Assembly (NCBI GenBank): GCA_029237915.1
Contig: JAQWHD010000002.1
Location: 1 to 40,345 of the forward strand
Direction: 5' to 3'
Source: Thalassotalea sp.
GTDB taxonomy: Bacteria > Pseudomonadota > Gammaproteobacteria > Enterobacterales > Alteromonadaceae
DNA: 40,345 nt
The notes under the pieces are model-generated. The model saw nothing but the letters and a program-made list of their open reading frames with translations. It made no database searches and was not told where the DNA came from. The position numbers were made by a program, and so were the translations under genes. Below, piece by piece: positions 3,547 through 39,005 of the stretch (position 1 is its first letter; every line of letters starts with the position of its first letter).

Positions 3547-3747
3547 CTAATCCATTTCATCTATCCAGGCTAACTGAATCGCTTCTAATACTCTCTCGCC
3601 ACAATGATCAGGGTCATCACTAAAGCGTTCTAAATCTAAAACCCATTGCCTAAGTTCGGTAAAATGCAGCCGAGTAGGATCAGTTTTAGGGTGCTCTTCT
3701 ATTAAATCTAAGGCTATTTCTAATGAATCTATCCACTTTAATGTCAT
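3547..3747 (-). CDS. iscX: Fe-S cluster assembly protein IscX
   Basis: The 66-residue acidic protein matches IscX (YfhJ) along its whole length. It begins TLKWIDSLEIALDL, has the central FTELRQWVLDLERFSDDP and ends LEAIQLAWIDEMD. IscX binds IscS and modulates cysteine desulfurase activity, possibly as an iron-sensing or iron-donating adaptor. It is normally the last gene of the isc operon. Here it stands apart from isc genes, on the same strand as and downstream of a cysteine desulfurase fusion. A terminator lies between the two, so independent transcription is likely. The recognition is firm; the partner is inference. Confidence 0.92.
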   Translation of the reverse strand: MTLKWIDSLEIALDLIEEHPKTDPTRLHFTELRQWVLDLERFSDDPDHCGERVLEAIQLAWIDEMD

Positions 3748-3863: not shown

Positions 3864-3890
3864 AAAGCCAGTTAATAACTAACTGGCTTT
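3864..3890 (-). terminator. Terminator after the sulfur fusion gene
   Basis: AAAGCCAGTTA, 5-base loop, TAACTGGCTTT: an 11-bp perfect stem. Read on the minus strand it is followed by a T-run. It lies 28 bases past the stop of the fusion gene and upstream of iscX. Confidence 0.85.
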
Positions 3891-3917: not shown

Positions 3918-6230
3918 CTAACTTAGTAAAGCAAAACCACCAGGGACATGATAAACATTTTCAAAGCCCATACGCTTTAATGTTTTTGCTGCAGCGTCAC
4001 TTCGGCTACCACTTCGACAAATACATACATAGCTGTGATCTGTTTTTGAGTCTTTATGAGTATTCACAAAATGAGTGATCTGGGTTAGTGGCACATTAAT
4101 AATTTTTTGATCACGAATATACTCTCTGCGATTGGCTTCGAATTCATGAGGTTCGCGCACATCAAATATCATGACATCAGGATTACTTGCTAAGAACTGC
4201 GAGAAATCACCTGGGTCAACATCAATACTAGGATCAATACTGGCTTTAATATTGCCGCATTGTGCAGATTGAGTACCATTGTTGATATGGCTATCAAGAT
4301 CAACTTTAGCAGCAACAAATTGGGTACTACTAAGCTTGTTAGTTAGCACTTGTGCAAGCACAGGGTTAGTTCTCTTCTCAAGTGCTAAAGTAGTATTAAA
4401 TAACTGTTGATAATCATGTGTTGGGCAAATTAATGTCTCATCAGTTATCACTTGCGCTAGTGCCTGTAATGAATGATACATCTGCACACTATCGCTGCTA
4501 TTTAAGTCGCTTCGACCAATTCCGCCAATTTGTAGAGTGTCACCCACAAATACATAATCGATATCTGCGGCAGCTAATAGGCCTTGCTTAGCATTACCTA
4601 ACAAGTAAGCAACACTATTATCGGTATGCCCCGGCATAGTGATTTTTGCTAAGACTTTATCACCAATAGTGATAGCAGGTGCTAACTGATCATTTTCTAA
4701 AGTTATTTGTTCAGTCAGGCTTTGATCCCAACCTAAACAATCAAAAGATTGTGAGCTTAACTTATCTGTAAATACATTGCGGATCATTTCAACACAGTCT
4801 TCTTGATGCTGATGCATGTGTGTTGCTAGCACGGCTTTGACGGTAAAGTCTTGACAGCTTACTAAGGTTTCAAATTTACTGGCGATCTCCGGAACAGGAT
4901 CTATTAATAAGATTTCTTTATTAGCTTTATCGACATAGCACCAAGTACATTGTTGATCGTATATCCACTGCTGCAAACCATTAGCATTACTATCAATTAT
5001 TTCATCGGCATCAGAAAGAATTAAACAACTGTTTTTAAGTGCGCTAACCGCATCTTTAATCGCCGCACACGCTTTATCGATTTCAGCTTGGGTATTAGCA
5101 GGGCCAAATGACATGCGTATCGCACCTTCACTTTGCCATTTTGGTTTGTCCATAGCATCAAGTACAAAGCTACCTGAAACTTTTGAACTACATGCGGAGC
5201 CAGAGCTTACGCGAATTTTTGCAGCATCAAATAAATCCATAATGTCTTTACTTGATAAACCTTTAACCGAAAAGTTAAGCGTGGTTGGCAGTGAATAAGC
5301 AAAGTCATGGTTAAAGACTATGGCAGGAAATACTTCTCGTAAGGTTTTTTCTAATTGCGCTCTATAGCCAACTAAAACATCATGAGATTTAAAGGTGTCG
5401 TCATTATCATCATTTAACAAGTTAAAGATTGCATTGAGTGATGCTATACCAGGTAAGTTTTCAGTACCTGAGCGTAAACCACTCTCTTGTCCACCGCCGG
5501 CAATAAATGGTGTATAAGGTGCATTATCACGCACATACAATACACCGATCCCTTTAGGGCCGTATAACTTGTGACCACTAAATGGGGCATAATCAATGCT
5601 AGTATTGGTTAAGTCTAATGGGATCTTACCTAGTGCTTGTACGCAATCGACCATCCATAAAACGTCTGGGTTGTTTTTACGAATAACGGTTTGCAGCGCA
5701 GGCAAATCTTGGAATACACCAGTTTCATTATTAGCTGCCATGGTACAAATCATCAATGCATCACCTATGTGCTTGGCAATAAATTCAAAATCTAAAATAC
5801 CGTTACCATCAACAGGGATAGCAACAACCTCAGCGCCAACATTTAAGATTTGATTCCAATGTTTTAACGTTTCAGGAACAGCCTTATGTTCGGTTGCACC
5901 GTAAAGTAATACTGGATTAGCTATTTTAGCTGCTGCAGAGCGAGCAGCAATTAGCGCCGAAATGATTGAAGTTTGAATACCTTCAGTCGCACCACTAGTA
6001 AAAATAATCTCGCCATCAGTAGCGCCAGTAACTTGGCGTGCTAATTTACGAGTTGATTCTAAAATGTACTTAGCACGAATTCCGGTCATGTGACTTGAAC
6101 TTGGGTTGCCGTAACATAAATTCATGGTATGAATTGCAGCTTCAGCTGCTTGTGGCAATACGGGCGTGGTCGCGTTATTGTCTAAGTAAATTTCATCAGA
6201 TTGTGGGTGAATGTCGGTTAAATTGATCAT
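3918..6230 (-). CDS. Cysteine desulfurase / persulfide-dioxygenase-like MBL / rhodanese triple fusion
   Basis: The 770-residue protein joins three sulfur modules. Residues 1-395 are a class V aminotransferase of the NifS/IscS type: LDNNATTP at the N-terminus, H115, D195 and Q198 for PLP contact, PLP lysine K221 in SGHKLYG, and catalytic C347 in SSGSACSSK. Residues about 425-645 are a metallo-beta-lactamase fold closest to ETHE1-type persulfide dioxygenases. The iron ligands H471, H535 (PGHTD) and D564 (VGDTL) are kept, as are GIGRSD and H605 in PTHDY; the second half of the HxHxDH motif is changed to HMHQHQ. Residues about 670-770 are rhodanese with active C738 in CRSGSRS. A plausible job is to take sulfur from cysteine and oxidise or pass on the persulfide. 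No signal peptide is seen. The frame is continuous across both linkers. Confidence 0.88.
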   Translation of the reverse strand: MINLTDIHPQSDEIYLDNNATTPVLPQAAEAAIHTMNLCYGNPSSSHMTGIRAKYILESTRKLARQVTGATDGEIIFTSGATEGIQTSIISALIAARSAAAKIANPVLLYGATEHKAVPETLKHWNQILNVGAEVVAIPVDGNGILDFEFIAKHIGDALMICTMAANNETGVFQDLPALQTVIRKNNPDVLWMVDCVQALGKIPLDLTNTSIDYAPFSGHKLYGPKGIGVLYVRDNAPYTPFIAGGGQESGLRSGTENLPGIASLNAIFNLLNDDNDDTFKSHDVLVGYRAQLEKTLREVFPAIVFNHDFAYSLPTTLNFSVKGLSSKDIMDLFDAAKIRVSSGSACSSKVSGSFVLDAMDKPKWQSEGAIRMSFGPANTQAEIDKACAAIKDAVSALKNSCLILSDADEIIDSNANGLQQWIYDQQCTWCYVDKANKEILLIDPVPEIASKFETLVSCQDFTVKAVLATHMHQHQEDCVEMIRNVFTDKLSSQSFDCLGWDQSLTEQITLENDQLAPAITIGDKVLAKITMPGHTDNSVAYLLGNAKQGLLAAADIDYVFVGDTLQIGGIGRSDLNSSDSVQMYHSLQALAQVITDETLICPTHDYQQLFNTTLALEKRTNPVLAQVLTNKLSSTQFVAAKVDLDSHINNGTQSAQCGNIKASIDPSIDVDPGDFSQFLASNPDVMIFDVREPHEFEANRREYIRDQKIINVPLTQITHFVNTHKDSKTDHSYVCICRSGSRSDAAAKTLKRMGFENVYHVPGGFALLS

Positions 6231-6413: not shown

Positions 6414-6441
6414 AAAAAGGCTTACAAATGTAAGCCTTTTT
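6414..6441 (-). terminator. Terminator of the ancestral porin gene
   Basis: AAAAGGCTTAC, loop AAAT, GTAAGCCTTTT, with a T-run on the minus strand. It lies about 40 bases past the natural porin stop at 6482-6484, not the premature one at 6575-6577. This supports the longer frame as the original gene. Confidence 0.85.
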
Positions 6442-6481
6442 ATAGATGAATATCTACAATTTAGATATTGTGCATTAGCAA

Positions 6482-6574
6482 TTAGAAGCTAAAACGAGCA
6501 CCAAAACCAATTACGTCATCTTCAGGTGTATATGATTGACCACCTTCAACATGCGTTGAGTCATCAACTTTAAC
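6482..6574 (-). pseudogene. Separated C-terminal tail of the porin gene
   Basis: In the porin frame, 30 codons follow the TAA at 6575-6577 and end with GFGARFSF and a TAA at 6482-6484. An aromatic-alternating last strand ending in Phe is the outer-membrane barrel signature recognised by the BAM complex. This is the original last beta strand, now beyond a stop codon. There is no frameshift, only one nonsense codon. Confidence 0.85.
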
Positions 6575-7636
6575 TTAAGTGAAAACACGGAAGCTATCAG
6601 ACCAATAATAGGTGACGCCGGCAATTAAATAGCTTTTTTCATAGTCATTACCAGAATCATCGGTAGTAACTTCAACAGCACCACCAAGTACTTCAAAGTC
6701 ATTTTCGAAACGATACGCAACTAAAACCTCAACACCAGTTGATTCATCTAAGAACATTCCTTGGTTGTCACGGTGATGGTTTTCACCATCAACAACTACA
6801 ACTGCAGCATACAGCCCTTGGCCGCCACGAGAGCCGTAAGTAACATTAGCAGCAGTCATTATGCTATCCATTTCTGCGCCAGTATCAGCTTCGAATGTTG
6901 CGGTATTATAACCAACGGCAACATTGACTTTTTCGCCAATGCTGTAATTAGCACCAAAACCAAATGAGCCATCTAATTCAATGTATTCAAAAGGTTGCTG
7001 ACCAATATTTGGAAGTTGTTCAAAATCAGTAGTATCAATTTTTTCGTTACTTACTTGAACCTGTGTACTAACTTTTAAGTTACCAAAAGTGTTACTGTAT
7101 TGAAGTGCTTTTTCAGCACGACCAGTACCAGTGAAACCACCATCACCTAAATCAAAGATACCAAGACCTTCACCACCAAAAATCATGAAGCTATCAGTAG
7201 CAGCGGTAGCCATATAACTTGAGCCCCACTGTTTACCCATAGTGATAGTACCCCATTTATCATGAGTCACACCAAAGTAGCCTAGACGATTAGAAAGTGA
7301 TTGATCAGCATCATCACCACCTAAAGAACTATTTTCTGAACTACCATTTAAAACTAAATCTGAATCATTCTCAGCAAAGCGTACTTTCCACTCAAGTTTA
7401 GCAATTGCTGACCAGCCATCTTTTAATTGGCTATTAAAGCTAAGGTAAATACGGTTGAAATTATCACGGATTTCATTATAACTCTCGCCGCTTGAGTCTT
7501 CACCATTAACTAAACTCGCGGTTACATCACCTGCAAATTTGATTGTGTTTGTATCATCTTTATACAATTCCACTTCAGCGAATGCCGAAGTTGAAAAAGC
7601 AGCCATAGTAGATAGTGCGATTAATTTTAATTTCAT
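6575..7636 (-). CDS. Gram-negative porin, truncated by a premature stop
   Basis: A general diffusion porin of the OmpC/Porin_4 type for the outer membrane. I start it at the second Met (7636) because the signal peptide MKLKLIALSTMAAFSTSAFA begins there and AGGG lies just upstream; a frame start at 7651 would add five residues. The mature part has alternating beta strands, the typical YLSFNSQLKDGWSAIAKLEW segment and the YFGVTHDKWGTITMGKQW strand, and acidic loops. The frame ends at TAA 6575 after FRVFT, and 30 further codons with the natural C-terminal Phe follow. Without the last strand the barrel should not assemble, so this is a recent pseudogene, a sequence error or a read-through case. 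Confidence 0.8.
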   Translation of the reverse strand: MKLKLIALSTMAAFSTSAFAEVELYKDDTNTIKFAGDVTASLVNGEDSSGESYNEIRDNFNRIYLSFNSQLKDGWSAIAKLEWKVRFAENDSDLVLNGSSENSSLGGDDADQSLSNRLGYFGVTHDKWGTITMGKQWGSSYMATAATDSFMIFGGEGLGIFDLGDGGFTGTGRAEKALQYSNTFGNLKVSTQVQVSNEKIDTTDFEQLPNIGQQPFEYIELDGSFGFGANYSIGEKVNVAVGYNTATFEADTGAEMDSIMTAANVTYGSRGGQGLYAAVVVVDGENHHRDNQGMFLDESTGVEVLVAYRFENDFEVLGGAVEVTTDDSGNDYEKSYLIAGVTYYWSDSFRVFT

Positions 7637-7984
7637 GGGGTACCCTAACATTTGATTATTTTATCTTTATTATGTAAAGCAGTGCTTTACTTATAAAAGT
7701 AGACGATATTTTTAGAAATGTATAACTAGATGAATGAATTCATTTCCATTGAGCTGATTAAGTTCAATATTTCAGTTAACTTTTCAATATTGTTATAATT
7801 TATAACAGGCTATTACAATTAATAATATAGGCAAAAACATCATAGGACGAAGTATTACATTTCGATAACATAGTTGTTTAACCACTTGTTAAAAAAGTAA
7901 ATTTTTTCACTCTCCTTTGAAAAAAAACAGCATTCCTTGATAGATGCTTTATAATAGCCGCATAGATAATTAAAGGGTGCCATT
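7637..7984. other. Divergent intergenic region between porin and nnrS
   Basis: No gene was found. Three dyads are visible: GTAAAGC-AGT-GCTTTAC at 7674-7690, AATGAATTCATT at 7733-7744, and TGTTATAA-T-TTATAACA at 7791-7807. A TATAAT-like -10 lies at 7950-7955 upstream of nnrS, without a good -35. The region should hold both promoters. Confidence 0.5.
7791..7807. promoter_or_regulatory. Perfect 8+1+8 dyad, candidate operator for nnrS or the porin
   Basis: TGTTATAA, one T, TTATAACA. The symmetry and 17-bp length are typical of a dimeric regulator site. It does not match the FNR/NnrR consensus (TTGAT-N4-ATCAA) or the NorR site, so the regulator is unknown. Confidence 0.4.
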
Positions 7985-23377: not shown

Positions 23378-24856
23378 TTACTCTAATTCTAGCCAAAACT
23401 TTTGGAGGAAGTGCTTATAAGGCCGCCATTGCTTTTGGTATTTTGTTTGTAACCCTTGACGTAGTTGTACGTCACTTAGAGTCCCTATATAACGTTCACT
23501 ATCTTTAAAGTCTAAACAATCCGCATGAATTTCCAGTTCTAGAAATTTAAATAGATTTTGCAACTCCCCTTCTGGGTCTGCGACTAACTTTTCATAACTT
23601 ATATTATAAATAAAGTCGGGAATAAGTTTATTCCAGTGTTCCATCGTACTTTGATAGTTTTGATGATATTCACTAATTTCTGCAAGTGAACAAAAGTAAG
23701 GCTCAGCTGCGGCAAAGTTGTTGCGAAAAATAGACCAACTCACATCGACAGCATCACGAGTAATATGAATTACCTTAGCGTGTGGCATCAACATGTTGAT
23801 CAATCCAATTGATTGATAATTACTAGGCATTTTATCAATTATATAATCACAATTCGGCGCTACCGTTTGCAGTTGAGTTAAATAATAGCTTGCCAACTTT
23901 TGCAAATGTTCAGGGGTAAGCAACTGACAACCTTGTGGAAAGTGCTGCCCAGTTAAACCGGCTATACCGTCGGCAATAGGACCAGCCATTAATGCCATTT
24001 CGCCAGCACTAGTTATCTTATTATTACCAAGCAACATCTGCTCTAATAAAGTTGAGCCGGAGCGAGGTTGGCCAACAATAAATATAGGAGTTAAAACTGG
24101 CTGCGGCTGTGGAGCTCGGGTGTTTTCCAATAAAGCTTTATTAAAGGTCGACAACAAAGAGCTAAAATATGGCTGCATATCCTTTACAGAGAAATTTATC
24201 TGTTGTCTTTGCAACGCATTTGCCTCATAAAAATAGTTAAATGCTTGCTCATAGTGCTTGGCTTTATGGCTTAGTTCGGCAAATCCATAGAGCAATAGCG
24301 CTTTATTTTCAGGACTTAATTTGTCTTGCGCTTTTGATAATTTATTTTCTTGTGTTGTTAATTGTTTAAGCATGACACTTAGATAGGCTTGGTTATCTTT
24401 ATTATCGAAACAAAGCGCATCCATTCGCACAAGTAACGCAAACGCCCTAATATTGAAAGGCTCAATAGCCTGCAATTCTTTGATATATCTTTGGCTTTGA
24501 CTGTATTTATTCTGTTCACAATAAAATACAGCTAATACTAATAATGTATTAACCGCTTTTGCATTTAATTGATAGGCAAAATTTAGCGCCTGCTCGGCCT
24601 TATCCAGTTTTCTCAAACGAATACAAGCATTAGCAAGAGACAGGTAAATTGCCGGTTGGTTAGGATCTATGGATAAACAGCGTACAAATAAGTCATGTGC
24701 CTGTTTAAAGCTATTTAAATGGTATGCAACCTCGCCTAATCCCCAAATTGCAGTGACGTCTTGCTTGTTTACTTGGATAAGCTGTCGATACACCTGCTCG
24801 GCTTGTTTGTATTTACCTTGCTCTAAATATTGCTTTGCTAAAATTGCAGTCGACAT
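23378..24856 (-). CDS. TPR repeat sulfotransferase
   Basis: A 492-residue protein with about five tetratricopeptide repeats in residues 1-240 and a PAPS-dependent sulfotransferase domain in 255-490. The 5'-phosphosulfate loop is GQPRSGSTLLE at 262-272. The 3'-phosphate region VIHITRDAVDVSWSIFRNNF is at 362-381. It should transfer sulfate to a protein, glycan or small acceptor, with the TPR part binding the acceptor or a partner; the acceptor is unknown. The fold resembles tyrosylprotein sulfotransferases at this level. It lies downstream of the TonB receptor gene but behind a terminator. Confidence 0.87.
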   Translation of the reverse strand: MSTAILAKQYLEQGKYKQAEQVYRQLIQVNKQDVTAIWGLGEVAYHLNSFKQAHDLFVRCLSIDPNQPAIYLSLANACIRLRKLDKAEQALNFAYQLNAKAVNTLLVLAVFYCEQNKYSQSQRYIKELQAIEPFNIRAFALLVRMDALCFDNKDNQAYLSVMLKQLTTQENKLSKAQDKLSPENKALLLYGFAELSHKAKHYEQAFNYFYEANALQRQQINFSVKDMQPYFSSLLSTFNKALLENTRAPQPQPVLTPIFIVGQPRSGSTLLEQMLLGNNKITSAGEMALMAGPIADGIAGLTGQHFPQGCQLLTPEHLQKLASYYLTQLQTVAPNCDYIIDKMPSNYQSIGLINMLMPHAKVIHITRDAVDVSWSIFRNNFAAAEPYFCSLAEISEYHQNYQSTMEHWNKLIPDFIYNISYEKLVADPEGELQNLFKFLELEIHADCLDFKDSERYIGTLSDVQLRQGLQTKYQKQWRPYKHFLQKFWLELE

Positions 24857-36905: not shown

Positions 36906-39005
36906 TTGGGCAATAAAATAATCATAGCGATGATCTTAGGTTTGATCATTGGCTTTAGCACTCATTTCACCTTACCTATCATTGACCTGATTGGTCAGGG
37001 CTTTGTCATGCTTTTACAAATGACCGCCCTACCTTATATTTCAGTCTCGTTAATTTACGGTATAGGTTCAATGAGTCGCCAACAAAGCAAGCAACTATTA
37101 AAATATGGCAGTACAAGTTTTATATTTTTAATATTCACGGTTTTGTTTTTTATTTTTCTGGCTCCTATCGCCTTCCCTGACTGGACCGCTGCCGCTTTTT
37201 ACAGTGCTAGCGCAGTCGAAGTTAAACATGAATTAAATATATTACAGCTATTCTTACCCGCAAATCCTTTTAATGCCTTTGCCGAAGCGGTTATCCCTGC
37301 AGTGGTAGTTTTTAGTATATTCATTGGTATTGGTTTCATTGGTGTCGAAAATAAACGCAGAAGCTTGTATGTGTTCAAAGATATGAGAGAAGCGCTTTCT
37401 ATCGTCACCAATATAGTTATGTATTTAGCTCCTATAGGTGTGTTTGCTATTTCTTTAAATGCTGCAGCAACATTAGTACCTGAAGAGTTAGAAGGCTTAT
37501 TAGTCTATATTGTCACGGTTGCGAGTATTGTCGGCTTACTAAGCTTTATCATATTACCAATGACATTAACCATACTTACGCCATTTACCTACAGACAAGT
37601 AATCACTATTGCCAAGGCACCTCTAATTACGGCTTTTGCAACAGGAAGCTTATTTGTAGTCTTGCCCCTCATTGTTGAAAATGTACGTAAACAACTACAA
37701 GATTATGCAAAAATTAATACCGCAGCAAAACGCGTACCTTCAATATTGGTGCCTATCTGTTTTAGCTTGCCAGTGGGCGGCAAACTGCTGGCAATATTAT
37801 TTGTCTTGTTCGCTGGATGGTTTTCAGGAGAAACAGTACCTGTAGGAGACTACCCCAAGCTAATGCTGATGGGAGTTATGCAATTATTTGGCTCAAGCAT
37901 AATTGCGGTACCAAATTTACTCGACAGCTTTAATGTGTCACACAGTATGTTTGAACTGTTTTTAGTATCAGAACAATTAATTATTTCACGCTTAGGTTCA
38001 TTACTGTCGGTAATGTTTATTACAGTATTCAGTTTACTGGTTACTTTGATGGTATTAAAACAAGTTAAATTTAACTTAAAACCTTTCGCCTTATTTACCA
38101 TCGGGGCGCCGTTATGTACAGCCTTGGTTTTTACCGCATTAAGTTTTGGTTTTGATTCAATAAGTCATCAATACAAAGGCTACGAAAAATTCATCAACCG
38201 CGACTTATTACTACCTCCGGCAAAAGCTACTTATTTAAAAGAACCTTCGGCACTTGCTGCTAATGAAGTAAATTCATCTGACACACTAGCCAACATTCAA
38301 GATCGTGGCTTTATTCGTATGGGCTATTATCGCGACTCTCTTCCTTACGCATTTCATAATAAAGATGGTGTACTTGTTGGTTTAGACATTGAATTAGGCC
38401 ACTTACTCGCTTACGAATTAGAGGTTGATATTGAGTTCGTACAAATTTATCGAAGTCGTACTAATGAGCTACTTAACAGCGGTTATTTGGATATTGTTTC
38501 AGGTATTCCAGTGACTCCAGCCAATCTAACGAAGTATAACCTTAGTGCCCCTTATATTAATGAACCCGCGGCTTTATTAGTAAGAGACAGCGATCGTCAT
38601 AAATTCTCTAGATGGGCTGATTTAATTGGCCAAGAAGATCTAGTAATTGGCATACCTGAAGCATTTTTCTATGCTGGAGGGGTAAAGAAAAACTTACCTG
38701 ACAGCGTTGTTTGGGAATTATCTACGCCTAGGTTATTTTTTAAGGAGCAAGGTGAAAAAATTGATGCGATGATTTTTGGCGCAGCTGGAGCTTCGGCTTG
38801 GACTCTACTTTATCCTGAATACTCAGTGGTGCTTCCTAAGCCGCAGATACAACCAATTGCAATCGCCTTCCCTCTGGCAAAAGAAGATGCGGCGTTTGAG
38901 CACTTTATAAGTCATTGGATTGCGATGAAAAAACGTAGCAATACAATTTCTGCCTTCTATACTTATTGGATAGAAGGTAAAAGTCCGGGTAATTTCATAA
39001 GATAA
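36906..39005 (+). CDS. SLC1-like dicarboxylate/amino acid symporter fused to a periplasmic binding domain
   Basis: A 699-residue fusion. Residues 1-415 resemble the DAACS/SLC1 (GltP, DctA) fold with about eight membrane helices and re-entrant segments. Residues about 455-690 are a type 3 solute-binding domain (RGFIRMGYYRDSLPYAF, LVGLDIELGHLLAYELEV). The binding part follows the last membrane helix and should face the periplasm. The canonical SLC1 Ser-rich HP1 motif and NMDGT are not seen; the aligned places read ITAFATGSLF (241-250) and FSLPVGGKLLA (286-296). The start is TTG 36906 with GGGGAA six bases upstream; the nearer ATG is out of frame. The substrate is unknown, perhaps an amino acid or carboxylate. 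Confidence 0.85.
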   Translation: MGNKIIIAMILGLIIGFSTHFTLPIIDLIGQGFVMLLQMTALPYISVSLIYGIGSMSRQQSKQLLKYGSTSFIFLIFTVLFFIFLAPIAFPDWTAAAFYSASAVEVKHELNILQLFLPANPFNAFAEAVIPAVVVFSIFIGIGFIGVENKRRSLYVFKDMREALSIVTNIVMYLAPIGVFAISLNAAATLVPEELEGLLVYIVTVASIVGLLSFIILPMTLTILTPFTYRQVITIAKAPLITAFATGSLFVVLPLIVENVRKQLQDYAKINTAAKRVPSILVPICFSLPVGGKLLAILFVLFAGWFSGETVPVGDYPKLMLMGVMQLFGSSIIAVPNLLDSFNVSHSMFELFLVSEQLIISRLGSLLSVMFITVFSLLVTLMVLKQVKFNLKPFALFTIGAPLCTALVFTALSFGFDSISHQYKGYEKFINRDLLLPPAKATYLKEPSALAANEVNSSDTLANIQDRGFIRMGYYRDSLPYAFHNKDGVLVGLDIELGHLLAYELEVDIEFVQIYRSRTNELLNSGYLDIVSGIPVTPANLTKYNLSAPYINEPAALLVRDSDRHKFSRWADLIGQEDLVIGIPEAFFYAGGVKKNLPDSVVWELSTPRLFFKEQGEKIDAMIFGAAGASAWTLLYPEYSVVLPKPQIQPIAIAFPLAKEDAAFEHFISHWIAMKKRSNTISAFYTYWIEGKSPGNFIR

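Follow-up and report, generated by a model that had tools for sequence, protein, structure and literature searches.

What does a single protein do that joins a cysteine desulfurase (CD), a domain resembling persulfide dioxygenases (PDO) and a rhodanese? The question is raised by a gene on the minus strand of a 40,345-nucleotide stretch of a Thalassotalea sp. genome (GenBank assembly GCA_029237915.1, contig JAQWHD010000002.1, positions 1 to 40,345), here called the window. The original prediction, made from the sequence alone, saw three complete-looking sulfur domains in one uninterrupted frame and read them as a chain that could take sulfur from cysteine, hold it as a persulfide and oxidize or transfer it internally. 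We confirmed the observation and found the interpretation partly supported: the invariant core of the family consists of the CD and the rhodanese, and the PDO part is decayed or gone in some lineages.

Three sulfur domains in one chain

The gene forms one frame of 770 codons without interruption, from an ATG at 6230 to a stop ending at 3918, and the first frame on the plus strand of 3918-6230 is rich in stops (Table 1). Pfam placed Aminotran_5 at residues 14-386 (E 1.5e-61) and Rhodanese at residues 682-766 (E 2e-10). Lactamase_B matched residues 430-473 with 21.6 bits (E 2.3e-4), slightly under the cut-off of 22.7, which the two intact relatives that we scanned exceeded with 33.7 and 39.3 bits. 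Using a script, we verified K221, C347, H471, H473, H475, Q476, H535, D564 and C738 in the 770-residue protein, and the alignments agreed with the predicted role of K221, C347, H471/H535/D564 and C738 as catalytic residues. Frame, Pfam and Protein Data Bank (PDB) searches together identified the gene as a fusion of a NifS/IscS-type CD, a Type I PDO-like domain and a rhodanese in one chain. An AlphaFold2 model of the full-length fusion was confident (mean pLDDT 87.8, pTM 0.84), and the 50 Foldseek matches listed for it were exclusively desulfurases and selenocysteine lyases.

Table 1. Features of the fusion gene and its immediate surroundings (window coordinates; residue numbers refer to the 770-residue protein)
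Feature	Position	Strand	Evidence or remark
Fusion gene CD - PDO-like - rhodanese, 770 codons + stop	3918..6230	-	Open reading frame, Pfam, residue check
CD, residues ~13-400, with H115, K221 (lysine binding pyridoxal phosphate), C347 (persulfide cysteine)	5031..6194	-	
PDO-like metallo-beta-lactamase (MBL) domain, residues ~418-640	4311..4979	-	PDB 4ysb, 5ve3 matches
H-M-H-Q-H-Q, residues 471-476: H471 (iron ligand) and H473 kept; H475-Q476 replace PDO Asp-His	4803..4820	-	
Iron ligand H535, PGH motif	4626..4628	-	
Iron ligand D564, GD motif	4539..4541	-	
H605-D606-Y607, equivalents of AcPDO H171 and Y173	4410..4418	-	110/110 intact members
C658, aligned with BpPRF K-C-G Cys; taken as Type I PDO Cys (ETHE1 C247)	4257..4259	-	
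Rhodanese, residues ~670-768, loop C738-R-S-G-S-R	3927..4223	-	PF00581 E 2e-10
Terminator-like hairpin and T run, directly 3' of fusion gene	3864..3890	-	Scan; same stem listed on +
Terminator-like hairpin upstream of fusion gene, behind porin-like gene	6414..6441	-	Scan
iscX, adjoining gene downstream	3547..3747	-	PF04384 E 3e-29

The CD part has the aminotransferase class V fold, the pyridoxal phosphate (PLP) lysine and a cysteine within an S-G-S-A-C loop. Enzymes of this family use PLP to take the sulfur of L-cysteine, releasing alanine and leaving a persulfide on the cysteine. Its nearest PDB match by sequence search was the NifS-like 1ecx (E 1.3e-64), and its scores lay below the NCBIfam equivalog cut-offs for both NifS (286.1 vs 530.75 bits) and IscS (223.1 vs 643.2 bits); it belongs to the same superfamily group as these enzymes, outside the named subfamilies. 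At the other end of the chain, the C-x-x-G-x-R loop of rhodaneses is present as C738-R-S-G-S-R743.

The architecture recurs in other genomes. Full-length relatives were found in 15/15 same-genus genomes, its own included, as well as in other genera, and 22 of the 59 genomes in a set of relatives had a match at E below 1e-200. In the order, class and phylum samples, searched at a threshold of E 1e-90 or better, the fusion was found in 43/394 genomes (14/115 genera; the middle domain is broken in two of the 43, G410 and G024), in 1/369 genomes, i.e., the window's own, and in 10/398 genomes, one of them outside the order. The hosts (best 80 of 290) include Thalassotalea, Thalassomonas, Shewanella, Pseudoalteromonas, Colwellia, Paraglaciecola, Rheinheimera, Ferrimonas and Marinobacter. 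Among 72,556 plasmid records, three carry the fusion, all of them Pseudoalteromonas replicons, and in one it is annotated merely as an 'aminotransferase class V-fold PLP-dependent enzyme'.

We compared nonsynonymous (dN) and synonymous (dS) divergence for each domain. Between the window and its relative L026, dN and dS were 0.031 and 1.22 for the CD, 0.104 and 1.96 for the middle domain and 0.022 and 1.08 for the rhodanese. In all 11 pairs with a result (of 15 asked, the others having no rows in the de-duplicated set), dN was a small fraction of dS in each domain; dS exceeded 1 in many pairs, making the values rough, two values were saturated and counts in the closest pairs were small. Given the homologues in every same-genus genome and dS far above dN, the fusion gene is real and not a product of chance.

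Invariant ends and a variable middle domain

To describe the family, we built an alignment of 158 distinct proteins. The first searches supplied 115 of these, the window protein among them, and the other 43 came from f213, a genome family that appears to be Burkholderiaceae-like and in which 81/245 genomes had a match at E 1e-62. The f213 proteins examined cover 44 of these 81 matches (the 30 best, 13 chosen for their short or intermediate frames, and L137) and are not a random sample. The CD residues H115, K221 and C347 and the rhodanese residues D690, C738, R739 and R743 were invariant in 158/158 proteins. The iron triad H471/H535/D564 was complete in 110/158 (110/114 outside f213, 0/44 within it). 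The four members outside f213 without a complete triad are L034 and L035, from closely related Thalassotalea, and L135 and L136; the first two are nested in the window's clade and retain just one iron ligand of three (T-Q-R-D in place of the first motif; H535 replaced by Y).

Of the 48 proteins lacking the triad, 40 keep the middle region and eight, 510-541 residues long, have practically none of it (0-25 aligned residues). Pfam scans of eight non-intact proteins detected no domain besides the CD and the rhodanese. In a profile-profile comparison with hhalign, the degenerate middles matched the intact ones at probability 100 and E 2.8e-49 (rhodanese control 0.6%), and a structural model of one degenerate middle with its rhodanese found the PDO-rhodanese structures 5ve4/5ve5 first (E 1.6e-11, with TM-scores of only ~0.4). 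Degenerate and intact middles are homologous.

We then placed these states on a tree of the CD domain, rooted on eight IscS/NifS-like enzymes. The family formed one clade (support 100) and so did the 44 f213 proteins (98). The eight forms without a middle fall inside the f213 clade and need three changes, one of which is forced by supported branches; the intact/not-intact state likewise needs three changes, two of them forced in this way. The trees were quick ones with SH-aLRT support only, and the CD tree carries long-branch warnings (L135 and the outgroup) and open forks at its base. Repeated deletion of the middle domain is likely, while not forced by the supported branches, and the likeliest history is that the domain first decayed and was later deleted.

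Two cysteines outside the active sites, C402 and C428, are each kept in 109/110 intact members and, in degenerate middles, in 27/40 and 29/40, respectively. Their role is possibly one in a relay or a structural one.

What the intact middle domain is can be read from its matches. A PDB sequence search with residues 419-770 returned Myxococcus xanthus PDO 4ysb (E 5.6e-19) and the PDO-rhodanese fusion BpPRF 5ve3 (E 4.3e-18, the alignment spanning both PDO and rhodanese), followed by human ETHE1 4chl (2.6e-10), CstB 3r2u (2.8e-8) and glyoxalase II 6rz0 (8.3e-7), and the PDO-like label of the original prediction held. The alignment with 4ysb places H471, H535 and D564 beneath the T-H, PGH and GD motifs of that enzyme, so that the window has the 2-His-1-Asp iron triad of Type I PDOs. 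The arginine and tyrosine of the glutathione (GSH) site and the Type I cysteine are also present (R573, Y607 and C658). C658 aligns with the cysteine of a K-C-G motif in BpPRF, at chain position 248, which is C228 if K236 there is K216. A study of AcPDO, the enzyme of A. caldus (PMC6060420), pairs 'C224/228' and describes C224 (ETHE1 C247) as the sole cysteine strictly conserved among Type I PDOs.

C658 is found in 110/110 members with an intact iron site and in only 2/40 with a broken one. Also invariant in the 110 intact members are H473, H605-D606-Y607 and G659, next to C658; R573 is kept in 97/110. According to the AcPDO study (PMC6060420), alanine variants of the equivalent H59, H171, Y173, C224 and R139 keep from undetectable to ~10% activity, H171 and Y173 acting in a hydrogen-bond network and in GSH binding.

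The full T-H-x-H-A-D-H motif is absent from the window protein, which has T-H-M-H-Q-H-Q instead. The original prediction took this change to fit a mononuclear iron site. The loss indeed speaks against a second metal, and to that extent the proposal stands; against it, Type I and II PDOs, mononuclear themselves, retain T-H-x-H-A-D-H, and the AcPDO variants D61A and H62A had no detectable activity (PMC6060420). Asp and His are kept together in 77/110 intact members. The window's clade varies freely at this motif (T-H-K-H-D-E-Q, T-H-L-H-Q-H-Q, T-H-Q-H-E-N-E and others).

The same residues bear on whether the domain might be a dinuclear thioesterase of the glyoxalase II type. Its best NCBIfam match was GloB (E 3e-18), which at 66.1 bits stayed below its cut-off of 200.8. 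The dinuclear ligands of glyoxalase II include the Asp-His of H-x-H-x-D-H, and the window lacks this second-metal pair, at least one of the two residues being absent in 33/110 intact members. With PDOs ranked far above GloB in the PDB search (5.6e-19 vs 8.3e-7) and C658 a PDO-type residue, we regard this identity as next to excluded.

At residue 575 (AcPDO D141), we observed covariation with the Asp-His pair among 115 proteins, Asn occurring with a kept pair and Asp mostly with a lost one. We do not claim compensation, because the tree holds too few independent changes (one starred pair, three in total; p 1).

The fate of cysteine sulfur

As the best explanation of the chain, we lean slightly towards an enzyme in which a cysteine-fed persulfide relay runs from Cys347 to Cys738 and an optional dioxygenase in the same chain produces sulfite. 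The CD, with PLP on K221, would desulfurate L-cysteine to alanine and a persulfide at C347, and this persulfide would pass, within the chain or the dimer, to C738 of the rhodanese. From C738 the sulfur would go to a small thiol such as glutathione, and the resulting persulfide could, by analogy with ETHE1 and CstB chemistry, be oxidized to sulfite with O2 at the Type I PDO-like iron site. On the same analogy, sulfite and further persulfide may exit as thiosulfate, possibly made by the rhodanese. The net reaction would yield alanine and either sulfite or thiosulfate from cysteine, little sulfide being released as such, and the dioxygenase step would be a dispensable module, its second shell altered and its iron ligands retained in the window's clade.

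Two papers (PMC8931425, PMC12319549) support the CD-to-rhodanese order for a fusion without a middle domain, the CD-Rhd of Pseudorhodoferax. This enzyme (C334, C466) desulfurates cysteine to sulfide with a kcat/KM of 2.2e4 per M per s and transpersulfidates roGFP2, and its C466S variant has a CD activity ~ten-fold lower with GSH or beta-mercaptoethanol. For the three-domain chain we infer the order of sulfur flow, as did the original prediction; the printed support is for the CD-rhodanese fusion without a middle domain.

Several points weigh against the relay with a working dioxygenase. The window has H475-Q476 where AcPDO requires D61-H62, and the position of the BpPRF GSH-site Lys, K216 (K212 in AcPDO), is a Ser, in a stretch where the alignment is uncertain (K642 lies five residues earlier). 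Residue 575 is Asn in 73 of the 77 intact members keeping the Asp-His pair, and the AcPDO variant D141A had 1.5% activity left (PMC6060420); both the pair and Asp575 are kept in only 4/110 intact members. Sequence change is faster in the middle (MBL) domain than in the CD, with a mean identity to the window of 0.335 vs 0.644 across 92 more distant relatives. The genome has a stand-alone Type II PDO (L143), which may make the fused one redundant. No conserved sulfite- or thiosulfate-handling neighbour emerged when 100 stretches were clustered (the window and 99 loci, some genomes being represented twice), and the literature search gave no three-domain member with measured activity.

With the Asp-His pair, essential in AcPDO, altered, the activity of the middle domain in the window's clade is doubtful. 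Q476 alone is not necessarily fatal, since Type III PDOs have the final His of the motif replaced by Phe or Tyr (PMC6060420); the window has also lost the Asp. By rough judgement, the odds of the window's middle domain working as a dioxygenase of glutathione persulfide are a little short of even, and for members keeping the Asp-His pair such activity seems fairly probable.

For the window's clade, the middle could instead be a spacer, structural or thiol binding and without oxygenase activity, that is being lost, leaving a CD-rhodanese transpersulfidase that yields GSH persulfide or sulfide as in Pseudorhodoferax. Several findings agree with this: the window and its close relatives lack the Asp-His pair, residues 474-476 are highly variable, two ligands are lost in the nested L034 and L035, and the f213 members examined have no working site. 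So does the distribution of separate Type II PDOs, present in 15/16 altered-site genomes vs 2/6 fusion-bearing relatives keeping the pair (Fisher p 0.009, kinship ignored; 15/16 are of one genus, and the sole miss is a 78%-complete genome). Yet the window keeps H471, H473, H535, D564, H605-D606-Y607 and C658, its middle domain is under purifying selection (dN and dS as given above for L026), and its clade keeps D575, mostly lost by the members with the pair, so that the network may have changed its arrangement without being destroyed; Type III PDOs, too, do without the last His of the motif (PMC6060420). We consider a mere spacer rather unlikely.

The stand-alone PDO of the window's own genome (L143, C17) had 4efz, 9g8t and 4ysk as its nearest structures (E 1.7e-86 to 2.4e-84), and we take it to be Type II after 4ysk, from P. 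putida. A PDO of this type is present in 14/15 same-genus genomes. As a compensation for the altered fused site it is suggestive only, the pattern coming mostly from one genus.

A second departure from the cysteine-fed relay is a role in sulfur assimilation, with the rhodanese moving thiosulfate sulfur to glutathione and releasing sulfite, the PDO making a second sulfite from glutathione persulfide and the CD only adding sulfur when cysteine is plentiful. The window is collinear with BpPRF across PDO and rhodanese, and BpPRF functions in sulfur assimilation according to the title of its paper. In the family, however, the forms without a PDO retain CD and rhodanese, so that the conserved unit is the CD-rhodanese pair, and CD-Rhd prefers cysteine to thiosulfate (2.2e4 vs 2.7e3 per M per s; PMC8931425). 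We consider an assimilatory role improbable.

Combining the cysteine-fed relay with the losses seen on the tree gives a broader proposal, which we hold only tentatively and with some doubt. The single chain would make sulfite or thiosulfate from cysteine and release little sulfide or none. Its ancestor would have been a CD-dioxygenase-rhodanese, CD-rhodanese proteins like that of Pseudorhodoferax would be remnants that lost the dioxygenase, possibly more than once, and the window's clade would represent an intermediate stage in which the second shell around the iron has been rearranged.

Gene surroundings and known sulfur enzymes

Terminator-like hairpins flank the fusion gene on both sides and suggest a single-gene transcript; the scan listed five sites in the region vs 2.2 expected, so that single sites can be chance, and promoter-like sites were fewer than in shuffled sequences. 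The gene is probably transcribed alone.

The adjoining gene downstream is the only iscX found in a search of the genome. The isc cluster of the same genome (L147, C16), whose genes we read from a look at the sequences as iscR, S, U, A, hscB, hscA and fdx, is without a terminal iscX. Among the 59 relatives, 18 genomes have both genes, and in 15 of these iscX lies directly downstream of the fusion on the same strand, no more than 500 bp away. One could therefore see the fusion as a specialized desulfurase for iron-sulfur assembly, tied to the adjacent IscX that the end of the isc operon lacks. In IscS, mutation of the R220/R223/R225 patch abolishes binding of both IscX and CyaY (PMC5801593). This patch is missing from the family: position 220 is R in 4/86 proteins, 223 is a gap in 86/86 and 225 is P in 83/86, the gap being shared by two NifS-like outgroup enzymes and hence not peculiar to the fusion. 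A linker takes the place of the IscS C-terminal tail, a terminator-like hairpin separates the two genes, and the only genomes in which iscX was seen behind the fusion, outside the isc operon, are Thalassotalea-like ones and a single one from another family (G049, L041). We read the adjacency as gene order and not partnership, because the Arg patch is missing, and consider a tie to IscX very improbable.

We also looked for a conserved operon partner and rejected the candidates: the largest neighbour families occurred in 22 of the 100 stretches, followed the genus, and none supports a pathway. A small protein of ~178 residues with a signal-like N terminus was seen near the fusion in 12 stretches (L037, L050, L052, L066 and others), and in nine of these it immediately precedes the fusion gene on the same strand; by eye it resembles the DUF442 phosphatase/sulfurtransferase-like family, which we take as a candidate label only.

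Upstream of the fusion, a porin-like outer-membrane gene (6575-7651, minus strand) has an in-frame stop ~30 codons short of the C terminus of its homologues in L008 and L030, and the expected ending is still readable behind the stop, at ~6480-6575. Either the gene was recently broken or the sequence contains an error. Pfam and NCBIfam gave no match for it, and 'porin' is our reading of the sequence. Elsewhere in the window, a sodium:dicarboxylate symporter domain and an SBP_bac_3 solute-binding domain share one frame at 36906-39005 (plus strand), and TPR repeats are joined to a sulfotransferase domain at 23378-24856 (minus strand).

Parts of the fusion are familiar from other enzymes. IscS and NifS share with it the fold, the PLP lysine and the S-G-S-A-C loop; the IscX/CyaY Arg patch and the C-terminal tail of IscS are absent from the fusion, which in turn has extra domains. 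The Type I enzymes ETHE1 (4chl) and M. xanthus PDO (4ysb) share the iron triad, H-D-Y, the Arg of the G-R motif and the C-terminal Cys; in contrast to the fusion, they are single-domain proteins with T-H-x-H-A-D-H intact. In BpPRF of Paraburkholderia phytofirmans (5ve3-5ve5), PDO and rhodanese are collinear with those of the window (query 423-766, E 5.4e-17), with the iron ligands and the K-C-G Cys present, but there is no desulfurase and T-H-V-H-A-D-H is intact. CstB of Staphylococcus aureus (3r2u) also has an MBL-fold PDO and a rhodanese in one chain; it likewise lacks a desulfurase and its match is weaker (E 2.8e-8). The window exceeds this CstB/PRF-type layout by an additional N-terminal CD at residues 13-400.

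The CD-Rhd of Pseudorhodoferax sp. Leaf274 (WP_056898193.1, PMC8931425), the basis of the CyReB sensor (PMC12319549), has CD and then rhodanese with a catalytic Cys in both, like C347 and C738 here, and, unlike the window fusion, is without a dioxygenase domain. The CD cysteine of the short family forms is at 338 in 5/8 vs 334 in CD-Rhd, and the spacing between the two cysteines is 140-152 vs 132 residues; from this comparison of length and spacing only, CD-Rhd likely belongs to the same family as the short forms. As far as could be searched, the parts and the pairwise fusions (PDO-rhodanese and CD-rhodanese) are known, and the triple combination, its spread and the loss of its middle module are undescribed: we found no three-domain CD-PDO-rhodanese chain in the titles, abstracts and text passages covered by the literature search, which left subscription papers largely outside its coverage.

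A three-in-one chain of this kind would be self-sufficient in converting cysteine to sulfite or thiosulfate, bypassing free H2S and the usual entry through sulfide:quinone oxidoreductase. One CD-rhodanese fusion has been reported as an unusually fast desulfurase (PMC8931425), and the module loss seen here suggests an origin for such fusions. The 158 relatives amount to a natural experiment, with intact, altered, broken and absent dioxygenases on a constant CD-rhodanese frame, so that a comparison of natural enzymes can test what the oxidation step does and where the sulfur of cysteine ends up.

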